Positions 536 through 8,210 of a stretch of DNA of 38,878 bases are shown here, in pieces (the first letter of the stretch is position 1; the number at the start of each line of letters is the position of its first letter). The stretch is from Rhizobium sp. Q54. Lineage in GTDB: Bacteria; Pseudomonadota; Alphaproteobacteria; Rhizobiales; Xanthobacteraceae. The stretch lies in NCBI GenBank assembly GCA_945861895.1, contig CAMAWF010000024.1, positions 1 through 38,878 on the forward strand. Direction: 5' to 3'. A program made the translations under genes and the position numbers. The notes under the pieces are model-generated. The model was not told the origin of the DNA and did no database searches. It saw nothing but the letters and a program-made list of their open reading frames with translations.

Positions 536-562
536 CGCATTTGTATACTTGACAAATGTGAG
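536..562 (+). repeat. left terminal inverted repeat of the IS1595-family element
   Basis: Reads CGCATTT, then TATACTTGACAAA, then GT.AG, and pairs with the reverse complement of 3669-3695; only positions 543, 557 and 560 differ. It contains the TTGACA box of the cargo promoter. Confidence 0.85.
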
Positions 563-576
563 TATAGTCCTAGGAT
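549..576 (+). promoter_or_regulatory. sigma-70-type promoter built into the left inverted repeat, driving the cargo
   Basis: TTGACA at 549-554 lies inside the terminal repeat and is followed after 16 nt by TAGGAT at 571-576. Transcription would begin near 583 and run into the ATPase gene at 657 with a leader of about 75 nt. The mirror-image box in the right repeat serves the transposase, so both ends of the element promote inward. Confidence 0.6.
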
Positions 577-656
577 GATCCGGCCCTCTCAAGGCTGGCT
601 CCCCGGAAATCACAAATGGCAGGTCTGCGAATGCGCTCCAATGAAAGGAGCGCGCC

Positions 657-1799
657 ATGGACGCGAATAAATTAATCAATTGTGGTACTGAATCCGCTGT
701 GGCCCATGAGGGCTATCGGTCGACTGGATACAAGATGATTAGCGACATAGAAATTCGAAACTACAAATGTTTCGAGCACCTAAAGATCGAGAACTGTCGC
801 CGGATTAATATAATTGTCGGTGATAATGGGGCTGGAAAAACTGCTTTATTAGAGGCCGTATTTTTCGCATTGGCAGGCAACGCACAGATTGGGCTTCGCA
901 ATCGTCAGTATCGCGGTTTCGATGGGGCATTCTCCGGTTCTGCTCGCGCGATAGAAGATGCCATGTGGGGCGATCTTTTCCACAATTTTAATACGAACAA
1001 ACCCATTTCGGTAATTCTTTCCGGTAAAGGCCCCGAAGCAAGATCACTTTTTATTTCGAAAGGTCAAGCCAATACTCTTATTTCGCTCGAAAATATAGAC
1101 GCAAAGAGTGCTCGCTCTAACTTTCGCTTCATTTGGAAAGATCATGCCGGAAACGAATTTGATGGTTCTCCATCATTTGCTGCCGGTGCTGCGATTTCGT
1201 TCCCCGCCGAACGCGAACATCTGCCTGATTTCTTTTATTTTTCGAGCACGTCAATTGGAGGCGCTACAGAAAATGCAGGTCGTTTCTCAGAATTAAGCAA
1301 AGCACGTCGTCAACGGCAATTCGTAGAATTGTTTGTGAAAGAATATCCTTGGATAGAAGATTTATCCATTGAAGTGGTTGCCGGACAGCCTGTTATTCAT
1401 GCCACTTTGCACGACATGCAAGAAAAGATTCCGCTAAACAATATTTCCAGCGGCATCAACCGGCTTTTAAGTATTCTATTGGTAATGGCCTCTCATCCTC
1501 GTTCTGTCGTGTTTGTCGATGAGATCGAGAATGGTCTTTATCACAAACATCAGCAATCATTTTGGCGCTGGTTATTGTCCTTCGCAAGCACCAGTGACAG
1601 CCAATTATTTCTAAGCACTCATAGTAACGAGTGGATGAGCGCACTTATCGCTGTCTCTGACGGGGATGTGCTTCAGAACATCGCGCTTTGGCGACTTGAG
1701 AGAAATGAAAAAGGTCAGCCTGAGCTATTTCAGTTTAGTGGCGATGATCTAAAGGCCGGCATTGAATATGGAGCAGAGCTTCGTGGCGGTTCAGAATAG
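657..1799 (+). CDS. ABC/OLD-type AAA ATPase, cargo gene of the IS1595 element (putative defence ATPase)
   Basis: A 380-residue P-loop ATPase of the SMC/ABC-like group (AAA_15/AAA_21 type) used by OLD-family and PARIS-type defence systems. Walker A is GDNGAGKT at residues 55-62, preceded by the typical IEIRNYKCFEHL strand. An ABC-signature-like ISSGINRLL lies near 263-271, Walker B is VVFVDEIENG at 284-293 with D288/E289, and an H-loop STH is at 320-322. There is no fused nuclease; the following gene supplies a TOPRIM-like domain and overlaps the end of this one. The ATG at 657 is preceded by AAAGGAG with 6 nt spacing; an internal ATG at 735 (residue 27) starts just before the conserved fold but has a poor ribosome site, so a short N-terminal extension is possible. 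The gene is AT-rich compared with the chromosome. The ATPase fold is certain; the defence role is inferred. Confidence 0.85.
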   Translation: MDANKLINCGTESAVAHEGYRSTGYKMISDIEIRNYKCFEHLKIENCRRINIIVGDNGAGKTALLEAVFFALAGNAQIGLRNRQYRGFDGAFSGSARAIEDAMWGDLFHNFNTNKPISVILSGKGPEARSLFISKGQANTLISLENIDAKSARSNFRFIWKDHAGNEFDGSPSFAAGAAISFPAEREHLPDFFYFSSTSIGGATENAGRFSELSKARRQRQFVELFVKEYPWIEDLSIEVVAGQPVIHATLHDMQEKIPLNNISSGINRLLSILLVMASHPRSVVFVDEIENGLYHKHQQSFWRWLLSFASTSDSQLFLSTHSNEWMSALIAVSDGDVLQNIALWRLERNEKGQPELFQFSGDDLKAGIEYGAELRGGSE

Positions 1800-2457
1800 T
1801 GATTCACCCAAGTTCCCCCGGCTTCTAATTTGTGAGGGACCGGAAGATCGATTCTTTTTTCACAGGTTAATTCAAGAGAGAAAACTGCCTAGATTCCACA
1901 TCTGGGACACTGGCGCTCGGGTTGGTCATGGGGGAAATACAAAATTTGCTCAAGCTCTCCGTGCATTCAGAGCATCCCGACCTAAAACATACGCATCACT
2001 AAAAGACATTGTAATTGCCGCAGACAACGACGAATCGCCTCAAGTCAATTTCAAAAATGTGTGTCGTCAAATAGAAAACGTCTTTGGAGACGGTACCGCG
2101 CCGACATCAGCACAACAGAGCACCACCAGGATAAAGCCAGCTATAAGTATTTTGATGATCCCCTGGACGGGCCAGAATGGCCATTTAGAAAAGCTATGCA
2201 ATGATTCAGCAAACGATTCCGACAAGAAAATTGGGGGTCACGTCACCGCCTTTATGGGATTACTAGCGGCTAGCAATTGGAAAAATGAATCACGATTTGG
2301 AAAAGCATGGCTAAGAGCTAATCTTGCCGCGAGATGCGAAAGAGACCCTTTCGTTCCATTGGGAGTAGTTTTTGAAGATGATCGCAATAAAGACCTCATC
2401 CCCGTAGACCATAAGTCTTTCGATCCAGTAGCGAATTTTCTTTCTAGCTTTGAGTAA
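1768..2457 (+). CDS. TOPRIM-like (DUF3226/DUF4435-like) protein, partner of the cargo ATPase
   Basis: A 229-residue protein with the outline of a TOPRIM domain. A strand ending LLICEGPEDR carries the conserved glutamate (E23), a later strand IVIAADNDES carries the D-x-D pair (D86, D88), and a downstream IPWTGQNGHLEKL resembles the proline/GxLE segment of DUF3226-type proteins. Such domains bind a metal ion and in OLD nucleases cut nucleic acid. The start overlaps the ATPase gene by 32 nt; a TTG at 1762 would add two residues and is closer to the AAAGG at 1751-1755, so the exact start is open. Overlapping ATPase plus stand-alone TOPRIM protein is the arrangement of split OLD systems such as PARIS (AriA/AriB). 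Whether this protein is an active nuclease cannot be told from sequence. The family assignment is from memory of motifs. Confidence 0.72.
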   Translation: MEQSFVAVQNSDSPKFPRLLICEGPEDRFFFHRLIQERKLPRFHIWDTGARVGHGGNTKFAQALRAFRASRPKTYASLKDIVIAADNDESPQVNFKNVCRQIENVFGDGTAPTSAQQSTTRIKPAISILMIPWTGQNGHLEKLCNDSANDSDKKIGGHVTAFMGLLAASNWKNESRFGKAWLRANLAARCERDPFVPLGVVFEDDRNKDLIPVDHKSFDPVANFLSSFE

Positions 2458-2499
2458 TCAGCTAGATGATGCTAAGGCGTAAGCTCTTGAGGGTTAACC

Positions 2500-2667
2500 A
2501 TGGCAAGATCACCATCATTTGCAGACACAAAGCGTTTAATGGCGGCCTTGATTCGGAGACCACCCAAGTCGCACGAAGATATGAAACTAGGAAAAGCAAA
2601 AAGCGCGCCCGCTAAGAACCTCGCAAAATCCGGGCGCGCCGCTCCCGCCAAGCAAAAAACCGTTTAG
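2500..2667 (+). CDS. small basic protein with PPKSHEDMKLGK motif, hypothetical
   Basis: A 55-codon ORF between the cargo operon and the convergent transposase. A GAGGG ribosome-like site lies about 6 nt before the ATG. The product begins with an amphipathic stretch (FADTKRLMAALIRRPPKSH), continues with HEDMKLGK and ends in a lysine/alanine-rich tail. Small proteins with a PPKxHxDMKLGK-type core are, as I recall, common and uncharacterised in Rhizobiales and often sit near transposases; I could not verify this. Function is unknown. Its composition suggests nucleic-acid contact, which is a guess. It may be part of the element's own equipment rather than of the cargo. Confidence 0.55.
   Translation: MARSPSFADTKRLMAALIRRPPKSHEDMKLGKAKSAPAKNLAKSGRAAPAKQKTV
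2598..2639 (-). terminator. possible rho-independent terminator of the transposase gene
   Basis: A perfect 9-bp inverted repeat, GCGCGCCCG (2603-2611) with CGGGCGCGC (2631-2639), encloses a 19-nt loop. On the minus strand it is followed by TTTTTGCTTTTC. It lies about 50 nt beyond the transposase stop codon but inside the small plus-strand ORF. The loop is long for a terminator, so the call is tentative. Confidence 0.4.
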
Positions 2668-2690
2668 CAAATTGTTTTCTCGTTCTGATC

Positions 2691-3632
2691 TTAACGAGTT
2701 GTCCGGTACGTCAGACGCTTGCCTTCGATACCCTTCATTGCAAGCGCCGTCCGTTCTCCATCGGTAATGCCGAGGCCGGATCGATTGTTGTGGCGAAACT
2801 CAAATTCCGTGAGATAGCGCTGTAGGTGCTGCTCACTGCAAAAGCGGTAAGTGCCCTTCATCGAGCGCTTGAAATTGCCGAAGAAATTCTCAACGGCGTT
2901 AGTGGTCTGGCCGTCCTTGCCGACGTAGTGGCCGCCTTGGTTCCAACCGTGCTGGACCGTTTTGTGTGCTGCAAACTCGCCGCCAACATTCACATAGAGT
3001 CTTGATTCGTCAGTGTGTAGTTCTGACGTTCGGTGTGCGTTGGTAACAAGAATGTTGCGGACGGTTTCTGCGGTCGCCGTCTTGACGTGGAAGGCGCGGG
3101 CACGGCCCTTGGGTTCAACAAGGGCGACAACCCCAGCCTTGTGCCGGTGGCCCTTGCGATAGCCCTTCGAGCGCTTGGACGAATTGCCATAATACGTTTC
3201 GTCCGCCTGAATGCTCTGGCCTTCGCCGCCCATAGGACCGGCATTCGTGTCGCTCATGGCTTCACGCAAGCGATGCATCATGAACCAAGCCGTCTTGTAG
3301 GTGATGCCAAGGCTCCGGTGAATTTCGTGAGCGGATACGCCGTTTTTGCCTGAATTGAACAGATGTGCTGCCATCCACCATTTCGTGAGGGGAACCTTTG
3401 ACCGCTCGAATACGGTGCCGACCGTGACTGTGAACTGGCCCTTGCATTCATTGCAGTAGTGCAGGCCGGGACGATGCGTGTGCTTCTTGCCTTCGATCTT
3501 GGCGATCTTCTCTTGGTCGGAGTTGCCGCAATGGGGGCAGATCGGGCCATCGGGCCATCGCACCGCCTCTAGGGCTTTGCGGGCCTTATCTTCGTCCTGA
3601 AAGATGGTGTTTTGAAACAATGCCTTAGCCAT
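2691..3632 (-). CDS. IS1595-family (ISXO2-like) DDE transposase
   Basis: A complete 313-residue transposase that cuts and joins DNA at the element's inverted repeats. An N-terminal zinc ribbon (CPHC at 32-35, CNEC at 60-63) and a helix-turn-helix-like segment (SAHEIHRSLGITYKTAW) precede the ISXO2-like catalytic domain. The acidic triad is readable as D144 in QADETYYGN, D208 in HTDESRLY and E248 in NAVENFFGNFKR. Length and order match IS1595-family enzymes. The ATG at 3632 has GAGGG 7 nt upstream, and its promoter lies in the right inverted repeat. The gene is co-oriented with tRNA-Leu just outside, so read-through from the tRNA promoter could also express it. No frameshift or stop interrupts the frame. 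Confidence 0.93.
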   Translation of the reverse strand: MAKALFQNTIFQDEDKARKALEAVRWPDGPICPHCGNSDQEKIAKIEGKKHTHRPGLHYCNECKGQFTVTVGTVFERSKVPLTKWWMAAHLFNSGKNGVSAHEIHRSLGITYKTAWFMMHRLREAMSDTNAGPMGGEGQSIQADETYYGNSSKRSKGYRKGHRHKAGVVALVEPKGRARAFHVKTATAETVRNILVTNAHRTSELHTDESRLYVNVGGEFAAHKTVQHGWNQGGHYVGKDGQTTNAVENFFGNFKRSMKGTYRFCSEQHLQRYLTEFEFRHNNRSGLGITDGERTALAMKGIEGKRLTYRTTR

Positions 3633-3653
3633 GGGATATCCCTCTATGGCTGT

Positions 3654-3682
3654 AATCTAGGCCCTCAGCTTACTTTTGTCAA
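3654..3682 (-). promoter_or_regulatory. promoter in the right inverted repeat, driving the transposase
   Basis: On the minus strand TTGACA (3682-3677) lies in the terminal repeat and TAGATT (3659-3654) follows after 17 nt. The expected start near 3647 leaves a leader of about 15 nt before the transposase ATG, just room for its GAGGG site. Confidence 0.6.
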
Positions 3683-3695
3683 GTATATAAATGCG
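3669..3695 (-). repeat. right terminal inverted repeat of the IS1595-family element
   Basis: Reverse complement of 536-562 with three mismatches; the outer tip is CGCATTT read inward from 3695. Confidence 0.85.
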
Positions 3696-3703
3696 AATAT
3701 TTT
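3696..3703. repeat. right target-site duplication AATATTTT
   Basis: Same eight bases and same orientation as 528-535. Because AATATT is itself palindromic, the inverted repeats at first seem to extend outward through it; the direct-repeat reading gives a clean 8-bp duplication. Confidence 0.85.
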
Positions 3704-3706
3704 CCT

Positions 3707-3791
3707 TGGTGCCCCTGGCCGGACTCGAACCAGCACGTATTTCTACACCTGATTTTGAGTCAGGCGCGTCTACCAATTCCGCCACAGGGGC
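3707..3791 (-). tRNA. tRNA-Leu (anticodon CAA)
   Basis: An 85-nt class II tRNA including an encoded CCA end. The acceptor stem pairs GCCCCTG with CAGGGGC, the D-arm contains AATTGGTAGACGC, and the anticodon stem CCTGA/TCAGG holds the loop CTCAAAA, giving anticodon CAA for UUG codons. The variable arm precedes the T-arm, whose loop reads GGTTCGAGTCC. The discriminator base is A at 3710 and CCA lies at 3709-3707. The IS1595 target duplication begins 3 bp beyond the CCA, so the original transcription terminator has been separated from the tRNA. Confidence 0.97.
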
Positions 3792-3858
3792 TTGACCCGC
3801 GCGGATCATAGTGGCGCATTGCTTAGGGTCAACGCCATGCCGTGTCAAAGATAAGACC

Positions 3859-4392
3859 ATGACCGTAAAATTCGGGAATTTCAGCCGCGCAGAACCCGCC
3901 ATCGCGGCGGCGGCGGCCATTGTGGCGGCCGGTGTGCTGGCGATCCTGGGCGCGTGGGGCTTTCAATATCTGCTTGGCTTTCAGCCCTGTCCGCTCTGTC
4001 TGGAACAGCGCTACGCCTATTACGTTTCGATTCCGCTCGCGGCCTTGCTTTTGCTCGCGCTCAATTATGGCGGATCGCGCAAGACCATCCTTGCCGGCTT
4101 TGCCGTGATCGCCGCCGCGATGGCGTGGAACGCCGGGCTCGGCGTCTACCATTCCGGCGTGGAGTGGAAATTATGGGCTGGCCCCACCGATTGTTCCGGA
4201 CCGCTCAATGATCTCGGTTCCGCCGGCGGATTGATGAAGCAGTTGCAGAGCATCCGCGTGGTGCGTTGCGACGAGGCGGCCTGGCGTTTTCTCGGTCTTT
4301 CGCTGGCCGGCTATAATGTTTTGATTTCGCTCGCGCTCGCAGGCGCCGCGCTTTTGGGCCTGCGCGCGACGCTCTCCCGCCCGGCGGACTGA
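3859..4392 (+). CDS. dsbB: disulfide bond formation protein DsbB family
   Basis: A 177-residue inner-membrane protein with four predicted hydrophobic segments that reoxidises the periplasmic thiol oxidase DsbA and passes electrons to quinone. The first periplasmic loop carries CPLC (C44, C47) after GFQP, and the second carries the other cysteine pair, in PTDC and VVRCDE. A GTG at 3811 would extend the frame by 16 residues with no membrane or motif logic; the ATG at 3859 gives a normal DsbB N-terminus, although its ribosome site is weak. The stop codon is 1 nt from the next gene's ATG, so the two are probably cotranscribed. Confidence 0.9.
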   Translation: MTVKFGNFSRAEPAIAAAAAIVAAGVLAILGAWGFQYLLGFQPCPLCLEQRYAYYVSIPLAALLLLALNYGGSRKTILAGFAVIAAAMAWNAGLGVYHSGVEWKLWAGPTDCSGPLNDLGSAGGLMKQLQSIRVVRCDEAAWRFLGLSLAGYNVLISLALAGAALLGLRATLSRPAD

Positions 4393-4393
4393 G

Positions 4394-5656
4394 ATGAGCC
4401 GGGCCGGCTACAGGGAAGTCCTGATTATCGGCGCCGGCATCGGCGGGCTGACGCTCGGTCTGATGCTGCATCGCGCCGGCATCCCATGCCGCATTTATGA
4501 GGCGGCGGCGGAGCTCAAGGCGGTCGGCGTCGGCATCAACCTTTTGCCGCATGCCTCGCGCGAAATGGTCGAGCTTGGGCTGGAACCGGCGCTCGCCAAG
4601 GTCGCGGTCACCACGCGCGAATATTGCTTCTTCAACCGCTTCGGCCAGTTCATCTACGCCGAGCCGGCCGGGCGCTTCGCCGGTTACGACTATCCGCAAT
4701 TTTCCATCCACCGCGGCGACCTGCAAATGGTGCTGCTCGATGCCTTCATCGCGCGCGCCGGGGCAGAGCGCCTCATCACCGGCTGGCGCTGCACGCGCGT
4801 TACGCAGGATGACGCGAGCGCGACCGCGCATTTCGAGGATGCCGCAGGCAAGCAGCTTCCCGCGCAGCGCGGCGCGGTGGCCGTGAGCTGCGAGGGCATT
4901 CACACAACGCTGCGCAAGCAACTTTATCCGGACGAAGGCCCGCCGCTTTATTCCGGCATCAACATGTGGCGCGGCGTCACCCGCTGCAAACCGTTTCTCA
5001 CCGGCGCCAGCATGGTGCGCATCGGCTGGCACCATCCGGCGAAAGTTTTGATCTATCCGATCCGCGACAATATCGACGCGCAGGGGCGGCAGCTGGTCAA
5101 TTGGGTGGTCGACATCGAAACCCCCACTTACAAAAAACGCGACTGGAACCGGCAAGGGAAGCTGGAGGATTTCATCGGCGTGCTCGCCGACTGGCGCTTC
5201 GACTGGCTCGACGTGCCGGAGTTCATCCGCAGCGCCGACATGGTGCTGGAATATCCGATGGTCGATCAGGACCCGCTCACGCGCTGGAGCTTCGGCCGCC
5301 TCACGCTGCTGGGTGATGCCGCGCATCCGATGTATCCGCGCGGCGCCAACGGCGCGGCGCAGGCGATCCTGGATTCCCGCGCTTTGTCCGATGCGCTCAA
5401 GAGCGAATCCGATCCGGTTGCCGCGCTGAAAGCCTATGAGGCCAAGCGCCTGCCGGCGACGACGGAGGTGGTGCTGGCCAACCGCAAGGCGCCGCCCGAC
5501 GCCATTCTGCACGAGGTCTACCGGCGCACCGGCGACAAGCCGTTCAAGCACATCGATGACGTCATCAGCCACGCCGAGCTGGTGGCGCTGTCGGAGAGCT
5601 ACAAGCGCGTTGCCGGCTACGACAAGGAAAAATTGAGTTCGCGCGGGCGTGCGTGA
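4394..5656 (+). CDS. FAD-dependent monooxygenase (PhzS/UbiH-like, FAD_binding_3)
   Basis: A 420-residue flavoprotein hydroxylase. The N-terminal dinucleotide-binding motif is GAGIGGLTLGLMLHRAG, followed by YEAAAEL. The middle FAD/NAD contact segment appears as VSCEGIHTTLRKQL, and the second FAD motif reads LTLLGDAAHPMYPRGANGAA. The pattern matches class A flavin monooxygenases that use NAD(P)H and oxygen to hydroxylate an aromatic or similar ring. The closest named relatives I recognise are PhzS-like proteins, but no phenazine genes are nearby, so the substrate is unknown. It starts 1 nt after dsbB, and a 54-residue basic protein follows 55 nt later. Confidence 0.85.
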   Translation: MSRAGYREVLIIGAGIGGLTLGLMLHRAGIPCRIYEAAAELKAVGVGINLLPHASREMVELGLEPALAKVAVTTREYCFFNRFGQFIYAEPAGRFAGYDYPQFSIHRGDLQMVLLDAFIARAGAERLITGWRCTRVTQDDASATAHFEDAAGKQLPAQRGAVAVSCEGIHTTLRKQLYPDEGPPLYSGINMWRGVTRCKPFLTGASMVRIGWHHPAKVLIYPIRDNIDAQGRQLVNWVVDIETPTYKKRDWNRQGKLEDFIGVLADWRFDWLDVPEFIRSADMVLEYPMVDQDPLTRWSFGRLTLLGDAAHPMYPRGANGAAQAILDSRALSDALKSESDPVAALKAYEAKRLPATTEVVLANRKAPPDAILHEVYRRTGDKPFKHIDDVISHAELVALSESYKRVAGYDKEKLSSRGRA

Positions 5657-5711
5657 GCCGCCGCGAACTGCTATGATGTAACGATTCAACCATCAAACCC
5701 GGGAGGGCGGT

Positions 5712-5876
5712 ATGGCGAAGAGTCAGGATCGCGGCAATAAAGAGAAGAAGAAGCCGAAGGCCGAGGGTAAGCGGAAGGGCGGCCTGCCGCCGCATCTGCA
5801 GCACCAGCTCGCGCAGGGTCAGGGCAGTCTCAACCTCAATCCCGGCGGCAAGCCAGGGCAAGGTTTTAAGCGTTAA
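5712..5876 (+). CDS. small basic hypothetical protein (54 aa)
   Basis: A short frame with a strong GGGAGGG ribosome site just upstream of its ATG. The product is rich in lysine and glycine (KEKKKPKAEGKRKGG), contains LPPHLQHQLAQGQG and ends in GGKPGQGFKR. No domain is recognisable and it has no membrane segment. The start context and biased composition favour a real gene. It follows the flavin monooxygenase in the same direction and is followed by a palindromic repeat. Confidence 0.6.
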   Translation: MAKSQDRGNKEKKKPKAEGKRKGGLPPHLQHQLAQGQGSLNLNPGGKPGQGFKR

Positions 5877-5883
5877 GTGGAAT

Positions 5884-5973
5884 CGTCATGCCCGCGCTTG
5901 TCGCGGGCATCCACGTCTTCAAAGCCGAGCAGGACCAAAGACGTGGATGGCCGGGACGAGCCCGGCCATGACG
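5884..5973. repeat. dispersed rhizobial palindromic repeat (CGTCATG type)
   Basis: A long inverted repeat opening CGTCATGCC and closing GGCCATGACG. It holds two nested hairpins (GCCCGCG/CGCGGGC and GGCCGGG/CCCGGCC) and the inner pair ATCCACGTCTT / AAGACGTGGAT. This is the familiar REP-like intergenic palindrome of Bradyrhizobium relatives; a second version lies at 8221-8310. It occupies most of the 299-bp gap after the small basic ORF, and nothing else was seen in that gap. Confidence 0.75.
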
Positions 5974-6175
5974 GCGGAGAATGTCTACTTTGCCCGGATG
6001 TTACTTAGGGGCTTAAAACGCCAACGACCACGAAACGAGGGGCGCGGGTACATCCGCCGTCGCCTGCTGTTGCGTGGCCGTCTCGGCAACGAAGCCTTGT
6101 GGGCTCGACGCTGCCGTTGCTCCCTATATGGGCGGTGAATGTGGCGAGCACAAGGCCGCCACTGGTTCTCAGGTT

Positions 6176-6733
6176 TCAGGGCTCCAGCTCGGTGTCCCAA
6201 TAGAGATAATCCAGCCAGCTTTCGTGCAGGAAGTTCGGCGGGAACAGCCGGCCGTTACGATGCAGGTGATGCACCGTCGGCTGGAACGGCATCTGCGAAG
6301 GCCACATCCGCGCTTCGTCCGGCGTCAGGCTGCCCTTGCGCAGATTGCAGATCGAGCAGGCGGCGACCACATTGCCCCAGGTGGTATGCCCGCCGCGCGA
6401 GCGCGGCAGCAGATGATCGAAGGTAAGATCCTCGCCCGAGCCGCAGAACTGGCAGGAAAACTTGTCGCGCAGGAACACGTTGAACCGCGTGAAGGCGGGG
6501 TGCGTCGAGGGCTTCACGTAGCTTTTCAGCGAGACGACGCTGGGCAGCTTCATCTCCAGGCTGGGCGAATGCACGGCCTTGTCGTATTGCGCGACGATGT
6601 TCACGCGCTCGAGAAACACCGCCTTGATCGCGTCCTGCCACGACCACAGCGACAGCGGGTAATAGCTCAACGGCCGGAAATCGGCGTTGAGCACCAGCGC
6701 GGGAAACCCATTCGATGCGACGTGTACGTTCAA
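6176..6733 (-). CDS. HNH endonuclease family protein
   Basis: A 185-residue protein of a widely conserved bacterial HNH family. The N-terminal part (PALVLNADFRPLSYYPLSLW) precedes the nuclease fold. Zinc-binding CQFCG, then LTFDHLLPRSRGGHTTWGN and CSICNLRKG together give the His-Asn-His core with a CxxC...CxxC pair. The C-terminal LHESWLDYLYWDTELEP is typical of the family. I place the start at TTG 6733, which has GGGGAG 6 nt upstream; an ATG at 6781 would add 16 residues but has no ribosome site. The role is unknown; genomic context gives no hint of restriction or mobile-element function. It is transcribed alone. Confidence 0.85.
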   Translation of the reverse strand: MNVHVASNGFPALVLNADFRPLSYYPLSLWSWQDAIKAVFLERVNIVAQYDKAVHSPSLEMKLPSVVSLKSYVKPSTHPAFTRFNVFLRDKFSCQFCGSGEDLTFDHLLPRSRGGHTTWGNVVAACSICNLRKGSLTPDEARMWPSQMPFQPTVHHLHRNGRLFPPNFLHESWLDYLYWDTELEP

Positions 6734-6835
6734 GCCAAACTCCCCGACGTTCTCAGCCGGTCGAACAAGCCATTGCCGCATATACTACAGGCAGCGCGAC
6801 AGGATTGTGAAGCTGGGTGCGGGAGTTACCAGCTA

Positions 6836-7516
6836 TTACCGGGGGCGGACGGACTTCAGCGACTTCACCAGGAACTCGCCGCCGTGGCGCAGCCCCTCCT
6901 GGTCGATGCCGTGGCCGATGCCCGAGGACAAGTGCCACTCCGCCGGCACGTCCAGCGCCGCCAGCGCCTGTCCGGCATGGAACAATGCCTCGGCCGGGAT
7001 CAGTTCGTCGCGGTCGCCGTGGATCAGCAGCACCGGCGGTCTGGAGCGGATTTCGCCGGCGAATTTTTCCGCATCGGCCTCGGGCGGCGTCACCAGCATG
7101 CCGGAAGAGCCGACGATGGCCGCGGGCGCCGCGGCGCGGCGCAATCCGACGTGCAGCGCCATCATCGTCCCTTGCGAAAAGCCGACCAGCGCCAGGGCCG
7201 ACGCCGGAAGCTTGCGCCGGGTCAATTCGGCGTCGAGGAAACCGTTGAGCATCGGCGCTGCCGCGTTGACGCCGGTCCAGCGCTCATTGGGATCGCGAAA
7301 CGTCAGAGGAAACCACTCGCGGCCCGTCGGCGCCTGGCCGCAAGGGTGTGGCGCGTGCGGCGACACGAATGCGGCGTTCGGCAATTGCGCCTGCCAGGCG
7401 CGGCCGATCTCGATGAGATCGTTGCCATCGGCGCCGTAGCCGTGCAGGAATACGATCAGCTGTTGCGCTGCGCCCGCGCGCGGCTCGATCCGCGGACCGT
7501 CGAGTTCAGCGGCCAC
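6836..7516 (-). CDS. alpha/beta-hydrolase, carboxylesterase/phospholipase family
   Basis: A 226-residue serine hydrolase of the Abhydrolase_2 type. The nucleophile elbow is GFSQG with S114, the acid is D170 in HGDRDELIP and the base is H202 in GIGHGID. An oxyanion segment FLHGYGADGND lies near residue 23. There is no signal peptide, so it is probably cytosolic and acts on short-chain esters. Its start lies inside the end of the upstream glycosylase gene (11-nt overlap), so the two form an operon, a pairing I take to be incidental rather than functional. Confidence 0.88.
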   Translation of the reverse strand: MAAELDGPRIEPRAGAAQQLIVFLHGYGADGNDLIEIGRAWQAQLPNAAFVSPHAPHPCGQAPTGREWFPLTFRDPNERWTGVNAAAPMLNGFLDAELTRRKLPASALALVGFSQGTMMALHVGLRRAAAPAAIVGSSGMLVTPPEADAEKFAGEIRSRPPVLLIHGDRDELIPAEALFHAGQALAALDVPAEWHLSSGIGHGIDQEGLRHGGEFLVKSLKSVRPR

Positions 7517-8210
7517 TGCGGGCTCCCTTTGATTTTTTCGGCTTCACGGAATTCGTCTTGGCTGGAACGGGCGCGCCCTCGCGGCGCTTGACGGCGTGAT
7601 AGTAAGCCCAGAGCAGATGCGCCGCCACCCCGCGCCACGGCCGCCAGACTTCGGCGAGCGCGGCCATCTTCTTGGCGTCGGGGCGCTTGCGCAGCCCGAA
7701 CGCGATACGCGCGGATTCCTGGAGCGCCAGATCGCCCGCCGGCCATGCGTCGGCGTTGCCGAGGCAGAACAGAAGATAAATGTCGGCGGTCCACGGCCCG
7801 ATGCCGTGCAGCGCGGTCAGCGCCGCGTGCGCCTGGTCCGCTTCCATCGCGTGGACGGCATCGAGATCGATGACGCCCTTGGCGATCGCCGTGCCGATCG
7901 CCTTGATCGACTTGATCTTGGGCCGCGACAGGCCGAGCCGCGCGAGCCGTTCCGCACGCGCGCGCCGCACCGCGTCGTGGTGGAACGGATCGAACGCGGC
8001 AAACAGCCGGTTGCGGATGGCCGCGGCGCTCGCGGTCGAGAGCTGCTGCCCGCACACGATGGCGCACAACCCGGCAAAGCCTGCCTCGCGCCGCCGCAGC
8101 GCCGGCCGCCCGGCCTTGGCGAGCACCGCGCCAAGCCGCGGATCGGCCTTGACCAGCTTGGCCAGCGCGGCATCGAGATCGGCTTCGGTGTGGAGGAAGT
8201 GGGTGGACAT
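7506..8210 (-). CDS. DNA-3-methyladenine glycosylase II-like (HhH-GPD family)
   Basis: A 234-residue base-excision repair glycosylase. The helix-hairpin-helix reads LHGIGPWTADIYLL (residues 134-147), and the catalytic aspartate is D160 in WPAGDLAL, at the correct spacing. There is no iron-sulfur cysteine cluster, so it belongs to the AlkA/MAG-like rather than the Nth group. It lacks the N-terminal AlkA_N domain of the E. coli enzyme and ends in a basic tail. Expected role: removal of alkylated purines from DNA. It overlaps the downstream esterase gene. Confidence 0.88.
   Translation of the reverse strand: MSTHFLHTEADLDAALAKLVKADPRLGAVLAKAGRPALRRREAGFAGLCAIVCGQQLSTASAAAIRNRLFAAFDPFHHDAVRRARAERLARLGLSRPKIKSIKAIGTAIAKGVIDLDAVHAMEADQAHAALTALHGIGPWTADIYLLFCLGNADAWPAGDLALQESARIAFGLRKRPDAKKMAALAEVWRPWRGVAAHLLWAYYHAVKRREGAPVPAKTNSVKPKKSKGARSGR

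Follow-up and report, generated by a model that had tools for sequence, protein, structure and literature searches.

An IS1595-family transposon of Rhizobium sp. Q54 with an ATPase/TOPRIM gene pair in its putative cargo slot

We describe here a complete IS1595-family insertion sequence (IS) element of 3,160 bp, located at positions 536-3695 of a 38,878-nucleotide stretch of the genome of Rhizobium sp. Q54 (contig CAMAWF010000024.1 of assembly GCA_945861895.1; the whole stretch is called the window below), which carries a pair of overlapping genes for an ATPase and a TOPRIM protein. We propose, with a probability of roughly two in three, that this is a transporter IS whose cargo slot holds an ATPase/TOPRIM system acting as a triggered nuclease. 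Insertion as a unit is seen from the ends and target-site duplications of two elements, the one in the window and a second one at a locus named L238; the slot, which is placed between a small conserved open reading frame (ORF) and the far end of the element, emerges from comparison with related elements. As judged from the sequences, the best label for the whole is an AbiL/PDC-M38-like ATPase-TOPRIM system on an IS1595 transporter IS, and not a PARIS system.

A complete element beside a tRNA gene

The initial annotation of this DNA had described inverted ends, an identical 8-bp flanking duplication and an intact DDE transposase, and all three are borne out. The cargo-side terminal inverted repeat (536-562, plus strand) pairs with the transposase-side repeat (3669-3695, minus strand) at 24 of 27 positions, by a count on the sequence itself, and exact copies of AATATTTT flank the element at 528-535 and 3696-3703. 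Eight bp is the length of target duplications in the IS1595 family. In a separate repeat computation, the element ends together with the duplications were recovered as a 37-nt inverted repeat with 86% complementarity. The right copy of AATATTTT stops 3 bp short of the 3' end of a tRNA-Leu(CAA) gene (3707-3791, minus strand), which lies in the chromosomal flank outside the element and was missing from the initial annotation. The GC content is 45% in both cargo genes, 56% in the transposase gene and 65% in the right flank. At the far left of the contig, positions 1-147 of the window recur with 98% identity on contig C137, which belongs to the same genome.

The transposase (2691-3632, minus strand) is encoded by an intact ORF of 313 amino acids, which scores 180 bits against the NCBIfam IS1595 model (NF033547; cut-off 75), 104 bits against the Pfam family DDE_Tnp_IS1595 (PF12762) and 45 bits against the zinc ribbon family PF12760. 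A second IS1595 transposase of the same genome (G000:C122:1292-2215; L185) is 53% identical to it, with ends that were unrecognised by the motif used.

Passenger genes have been described in IS1595 elements before, which are then termed transporter IS (tIS), in agreement with what the initial annotation had stated on this point; in PMC5704250, the examples MTnSag1/tISSag10 and tISCpe8 share with the window element an IS1595 DDE transposase, inverted ends, a target duplication and an internal passenger gene. In the window the passengers are the ATPase and TOPRIM genes inside 536-3695, and a homologous pair lies inside the L238 element; the passenger of tISCpe8, in contrast, is a lincomycin resistance gene (same source), and MTnSag1/tISSag10 and tISCpe8 are both mobilisable. 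The window element further differs from these tIS in its conserved small ORF and in belonging to a group across which the content of the slot varies.

The ATPase/TOPRIM gene pair

Both cargo genes are on the plus strand. The first (657-1799, with an alternative start at 735) encodes an OLD/RecF-type ATPase of 380 amino acids that resembles AbiLi and PDC-M38A and scores 87 bits against Pfam AAA_15 and 69 bits against AAA_21; the second (1768-2457) encodes a DUF3226/TOPRIM protein of 229 amino acids from its ATG, or 231 from a TTG at 1762, that scores 52.7 bits against DUF3226 (cut-off 27). The TOPRIM gene overlaps the ATPase gene by 32 nt. Six ATPases agree without exception in their Walker A (GxNxxGK), Walker B (DE) and HS residues, and the intact E...DxD set of the TOPRIM motif (E23, D86 and D88) is invariant in five homologues; the earlier description of an AT-rich, overlapping pair with ATPase and TOPRIM motifs stands.

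Five non-transposon loci were opened, of which L066, L067 and L068 are three among the best ATPase matches, while L221 and L222 were found via DUF3226; in all five the ATPase gene is adjacent to a TOPRIM-like ORF, which is short in L067 (132 amino acids) and about 214-266 amino acids long in the others. DUF3226 rises above its cut-off in 3 of the 289 genomes of the class, our genome included. In 198 genomes of the same family, a match to the TOPRIM protein at E≤0.001 was found solely in its own genome, and searches with peptide patterns in the genome contigs and with tblastn in plasmids gave no match. The TOPRIM protein was modelled with AlphaFold2 (mean pLDDT 73.5), and when the model was compared with the PDB by Foldseek, the first eight entries were chains of retron Eco2, of the OLD C-terminal part and of PARIS, at E-values from 0.0037 to 0.062; we consider this comparison to be suggestive of such a fold, and not proof.

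With respect to named defence systems, the ATPase matches the AbiLi model of PADLOC (PDLC02336) over the full profile (1-340 of 340; 155.9 bits, E=4.7e-46) as well as PDC-M38A (115.9 bits, E=7.1e-34), and the TOPRIM protein matches PDC-M38B weakly (26 bits, E=1.6e-6). The A and B proteins of PDC-M38, a candidate system in PADLOC, are thus represented side by side in the window, the B match being weak. AbiL has the same type of ATPase; its partner AbiLii is absent among the four PADLOC families that the TOPRIM protein matches at E up to 1, which would count as a difference provided that PADLOC includes an AbiLii model. Another difference is that the window pair sits on a minimal transposon.

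The initial annotation had also compared the pair with PARIS (AriA/AriB; proposed as class 4 OLD), and this comparison holds in part. PARIS likewise has its ATPase and TOPRIM on separate genes (PMC10568477), and PARIS chains are among the weak fold matches of the TOPRIM model (Foldseek E-values of 0.029 and 0.46). The ATPase, on the other hand, reaches the AriA models at 85 and 69 bits, equal to its generic AAA_15/AAA_21 scores, and AriB, the effector of PARIS, was not matched by the TOPRIM protein in PADLOC (E up to 1), nor by sequence among PDB chains, where a library that includes PARIS structures was searched with the protein to E=10 and with a five-sequence profile to E=1. Since there is no AriB match by sequence, we rejected simple PARIS membership; the second protein matches DUF3226 instead.

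A second element with the same pair

Among 43 genomes of the same genus, the ATPase was found at E≤1e-8 in three: our own, G609 and G608, the last having a frameshifted fragment at a contig edge; a pair fixed at the window locus in relatives that lack the transposase, which the initial annotation had named as a refuting result, was not seen. In G609, at locus L238, the pair is part of a complete element of 3,197 bp (3578-6774), with ends that match at 21 of 26 positions and an exact duplication, TAATTAAT. The expectation of the initial annotation, that the same pair should recur between IS1595 ends at unrelated loci, is hence borne out once: the flanks of L238 have no blastn match to those of the window at E≤1e-5, which makes this an unrelated locus. 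Gene order and orientation are the same in the two elements, and the proteins are 49% (transposase), 32% (ATPase) and 30% (TOPRIM) identical. The window ATPase scores 179 bits against that of L238, and neither of the two exceeds 87 bits against the five non-transposon homologues. A small basic ORF is found at the expected position in L238, as judged by eye.

A second IS1595 transposase gene (6843-7787, within L238:3570-9153) directly adjoins the ATPase/TOPRIM element and is followed by a gene with the motif RNDVIH, a HEPN-like cargo; a single TAATTAAT lies between both elements, and the right end of the neighbour was not identified.

A group of elements with a conserved small ORF

Relatives of the transposase were collected from genome contigs (61 loci), viral contigs (3) and genomes of the same order (60 regions); the sets overlap to some extent. 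At 64 of 131 transposase places the ends could be paired and were flanked by an exact 8-bp match; when one flank was displaced by 15 to 90 bases in five control runs, 0 or 1 of the 131 places showed an exact 8-bp match, so that the duplications are not chance. After merging of duplicates, 61 distinct delimited elements were obtained, including that of the window and counting the composite L161 once, with lengths of 1,923 to 5,678 bp. In each of the 61, the part beyond the transposase measures no less than 934 bp and includes an ORF of 100 amino acids or longer, none of the elements being bare, and in all 61 the GC content is lower on the cargo side than in the transposase. The target sites of the group are AT-rich (22% GC in the duplications vs 61% in the flanks) and have palindromic edges.

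A small basic ORF of 55 amino acids with a PPKPH-type motif (2500-2667, plus strand, opposite to the transposase), which was absent from the initial annotation, is conserved in the group: a profile detects it in 51 of the 61 elements (weakly in L017, L173 and L183), on the strand opposite to the transposase in each of the 51. Mismatches in 14 elements amount to 0.21/0.13/0.51 by codon position, the pattern expected if the ORF is translated into protein. An ATG could be identified for the small ORF in 44 elements; in 33 of these it lies in a CATG, and in 29 an overlapping ATG is the start of an ORF of 100 or more amino acids that runs in the opposite direction. The window cargo is co-directional with the small ORF, as are those of L011 and L238. 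The comparison indicates that the transposase and the oppositely oriented small ORF constitute the fixed module of the group, and that the cargo occupies a slot extending from the small ORF to the far end.

Viewed alone, the window pair could be a chance passenger caught once by an ordinary IS1595 element that has no special slot. We consider this highly improbable: passenger genes are known from other IS1595 elements (PMC5704250), but cargo is present in 61 of 61 delimited elements, most of which have the small ORF, and a homologous pair sits in the second element.

Some members of the group have features of their own. L018 and L019 (Bradyrhizobium) have the reverse-complementary duplications CCCTGGAG and CTCCAGGG and flanks that are partly alike, and perhaps represent the same kind of target entered in opposite orientation. 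Short helix-turn-helix-like ORFs (of the type DIAAxLGxNxGRVSE, by eye) lie between the transposase and the small ORF in the Sphingomonadales elements L029, L033, L037, L041 and L052. The composite L161, 5.7 kb in length, has two opposed IS1595 transposases and cargo of the DUF1829/PDC-M24B type.

Turnover of the cargo

Two elements, L042 and L046, are found at the same base of one site, in the same orientation and with an identical duplication. Their transposases are 94.0% identical (93.9% in one comparison) and the next 592 bp 97.1%; their flanks are 98.8% identical over the nearest 250 bp and 95.5-95.7% over 1.5 kb, falling to 86.4% over 2.6 kb on the left and 85.1% over 4.5 kb on the right. 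The similarity ends at the start of the small ORF and returns at the inner edge of the end repeat; between these points DNA similarity is limited to short chance words, and the cargo proteins are 25% identical over 196 amino acids, that of L046 being closer to the protein of L005 (Methylocystis, from another order) than to that of L042. A reading of the two cargoes as unrelated was discarded, since the minus-strand ORF of L046 on which it was based is antisense; the plus-strand gene is distantly related to that of L042, and the cargo is therefore better described as replaced by a distant homologue. Similarly, L029 and L058 have modules that are 94% identical, at different sites and with cargo of different groups, and the modules of L035, L036, L038 and L039 (87.6-91.2% identical) go with cargo of at least two groups. 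Taken over the group, these alignments indicate that cargo changes faster than the transposase.

For L042 and L046 we prefer the reading that the cargo was exchanged in place. Independent insertions into one palindromic hotspot could also have produced this difference, and we give this rival somewhat poorer odds than exchange. It is raised by the AT-rich sites with palindromic edges that the group favours and by an intergenic region in Sphingomonadales that is hit recurrently, in both orientations; moreover, the adjacent 250 bp are, at 98.8%, more similar than the transposases at 93.9%. However, the two elements share orientation, duplication and insertion base, the transposase and its 97.1% identical tail diverge about as much as the 1.5-kb flanks and less than the longer ones (85-86%), and cargo groups differ elsewhere too, between modules that are 87.6-94% identical. 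When 289 genomes of the class were searched for the L046 site, it was found in none. The Sphingomonadales region lies between patatin-like and ammonium-transporter (amtB-like) genes, which were named by eye from their protein sequences; L032, L035-L038, L041, L042, L046, L049, L052 and L058 have similar flanks in different species of the order.

A wider interpretation, which we put forward tentatively and hold to be possible although short of probable, is that minimal IS1595 transposons are cassette carriers, in which the fixed module receives toxin or defence cassettes by in-place replacement, the window pair being one such cassette. The small ORF would then end at the CATG start codon that it shares with the cargo gene, and cassettes of one or two genes would be swapped in the stretch from the small ORF to the far inverted end. 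If true, such a platform for exchanging genes would resemble neither integrons nor Tn7-type elements.

Cargo genes of the related elements

The motif R[NHD]xxxH is present in 28 of 108 cargo ORFs, distributed over 28 of the 61 elements, while 200 shuffles gave a mean of 5.2 and a maximum of 11; for cargo proteins that start at or near the small ORF the count is 21 of 37. Apart from the start, only R and H are invariant in an alignment of 16 HEPN-like cargo proteins, which had been selected in part because they have the motif, and an AlphaFold2 model of such a protein is mainly helical (pLDDT 80). Scores against the Pfam HEPN families are below the cut-offs. From the motif we infer that HEPN-like proteins are the commonest cargo. 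A second cargo family comprises nine related proteins in other slots, and single cases include ClpP-like, NYN/HEC-09, PD-Lambda-2_C, PDC-M04A, SocA/Panacea, trypsin-like and DUF4145 proteins, as well as DUF1828 and sub-threshold DUF1829 proteins, both PDC-M24B; one of the PADLOC matches among cargo proteins is 'cll'. L203 is an IS1595 element of 4 kb that has a PD-Lambda-2_C-like gene together with a PDC-M04A-like gene.

Toxin-type cargo tied to a transposon module is also found in Tn3-family transposons, which have toxin-antitoxin pairs within the transposition module (PMC7157771); these use another transposase family, whereas elements of the present group are much smaller and have one or two interchangeable cargo genes. 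Tn7-like transposons resemble the group in their diverse cargo, defence systems included (PMC8649781), but the elements described here span 1.9-5.7 kb, with one transposase (two in L161) and usually one or two cargo genes. No description of HEPN or ATPase/TOPRIM cargo in IS1595 elements was found in the literature, as far as titles and the openings of abstracts tell.

Proposed mechanism and its alternatives

Because of what is known of split ATPase/TOPRIM systems (PMC10568477) and of PARIS, we suggest that the window pair is most likely a triggered nuclease that aborts infection, which would give it a role in defence. The insertion would have taken place next to the tRNA-Leu gene, at an AT-rich site with palindromic edges. 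The RecF/OLD-like ATPase may sense a signal made by the phage and then release or activate the TOPRIM nuclease, which would cut nucleic acid and lead to growth stop or death of the infected cell; such an arrest would protect kin cells, and may help the transposon to persist. We further speculate, as a guess, that cargo might be swapped by homologous exchange between the conserved module and the inverted end.

Alternatively, the pair might be an addiction or stabilisation module, in which a TOPRIM toxin held by the ATPase kills cells that lose the element, phage defence being incidental. We regard this as rather unlikely, although AriA, a distant relative of the ATPase, is named an antitoxin in PDB molecule names, other elements of the group carry antitoxin-like SocA/Panacea or HEPN-like genes, and loss of the element would matter, as it is single-copy. 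The nearest named families are, in contrast, abortive-infection or phage-defence candidates, which favours the triggered nuclease; the two roles may also coincide.

Several results weigh against the proposed transporter IS with a defence cargo. The window element is present in a single copy in its own genome (the other match being a related transposase, 66% identical over about 370 bp), so that recent movement is unproven. Positions 1-528 of the window have no match in the other 42 genomes of the genus, which therefore offer no empty site, and none of 19 other matches to the tRNA has window sequence beside the tRNA end, as inspected by eye. IS1595 elements of about 1 kb with a single ORF are reported from Xanthomonas and Ralstonia (PMC11092175). 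The end motif left a further 67 of the 131 transposase places without boundaries, many of them reaching contig ends and others having divergent ends, as in L238; the statement that cargo is always present is thus limited to the 61 delimited elements. The TOPRIM model had no Foldseek match at E≤0.001, with TM-scores of 0.28-0.44, and at the sequence level the protein matched none of the solved TOPRIM structures among the PDB chains. For the HEPN-like model, Foldseek likewise returned nothing at E≤0.001, and no HEPN entry was among the best 50.

Enrichment of the group cargo in known defence genes was not upheld. PADLOC matches at E≤1e-10 were obtained for 6 of 75 cargo ORFs and for 2-3 of 77 flanking control genes, two of the three PADLOC families hit by the controls possibly stemming from a single protein (p = 0.16 or 0.32 in Fisher's test), and defence cargo as a rule of the group is therefore not established. 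The 75 ORFs exclude the window pair, one transposase (L161) and one duplicate (L016), and include at least two antisense ORFs (that of L035 and the minus-strand ORF of L046).

The single copy could likewise indicate that the element is an old, inactive remnant, fixed beside tRNA-Leu within a genomic island; the left flank 1-528 may be island DNA, and its absence from the other 42 genomes is what one would see in that case. Both ends, the duplications and every ORF are nevertheless intact, and we consider a remnant to be improbable.

Prophages, plasmids, integrative elements and large transposons are the usual carriers from which defence genes are described. If it is true that the smallest autonomous transposons carry interchangeable nuclease-like cargo, this would offer defence genes an easy way to pass from one chromosome to another, and the slots of the group would be a place to find new ones. 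Two testable questions are raised by this, namely how cargo is exchanged while the transposase module stays put, and what role the conserved small protein plays. The differing slot genes of the relatives suggest that interchangeable defence-like genes are carried from one bacterium to another by very small transposons.

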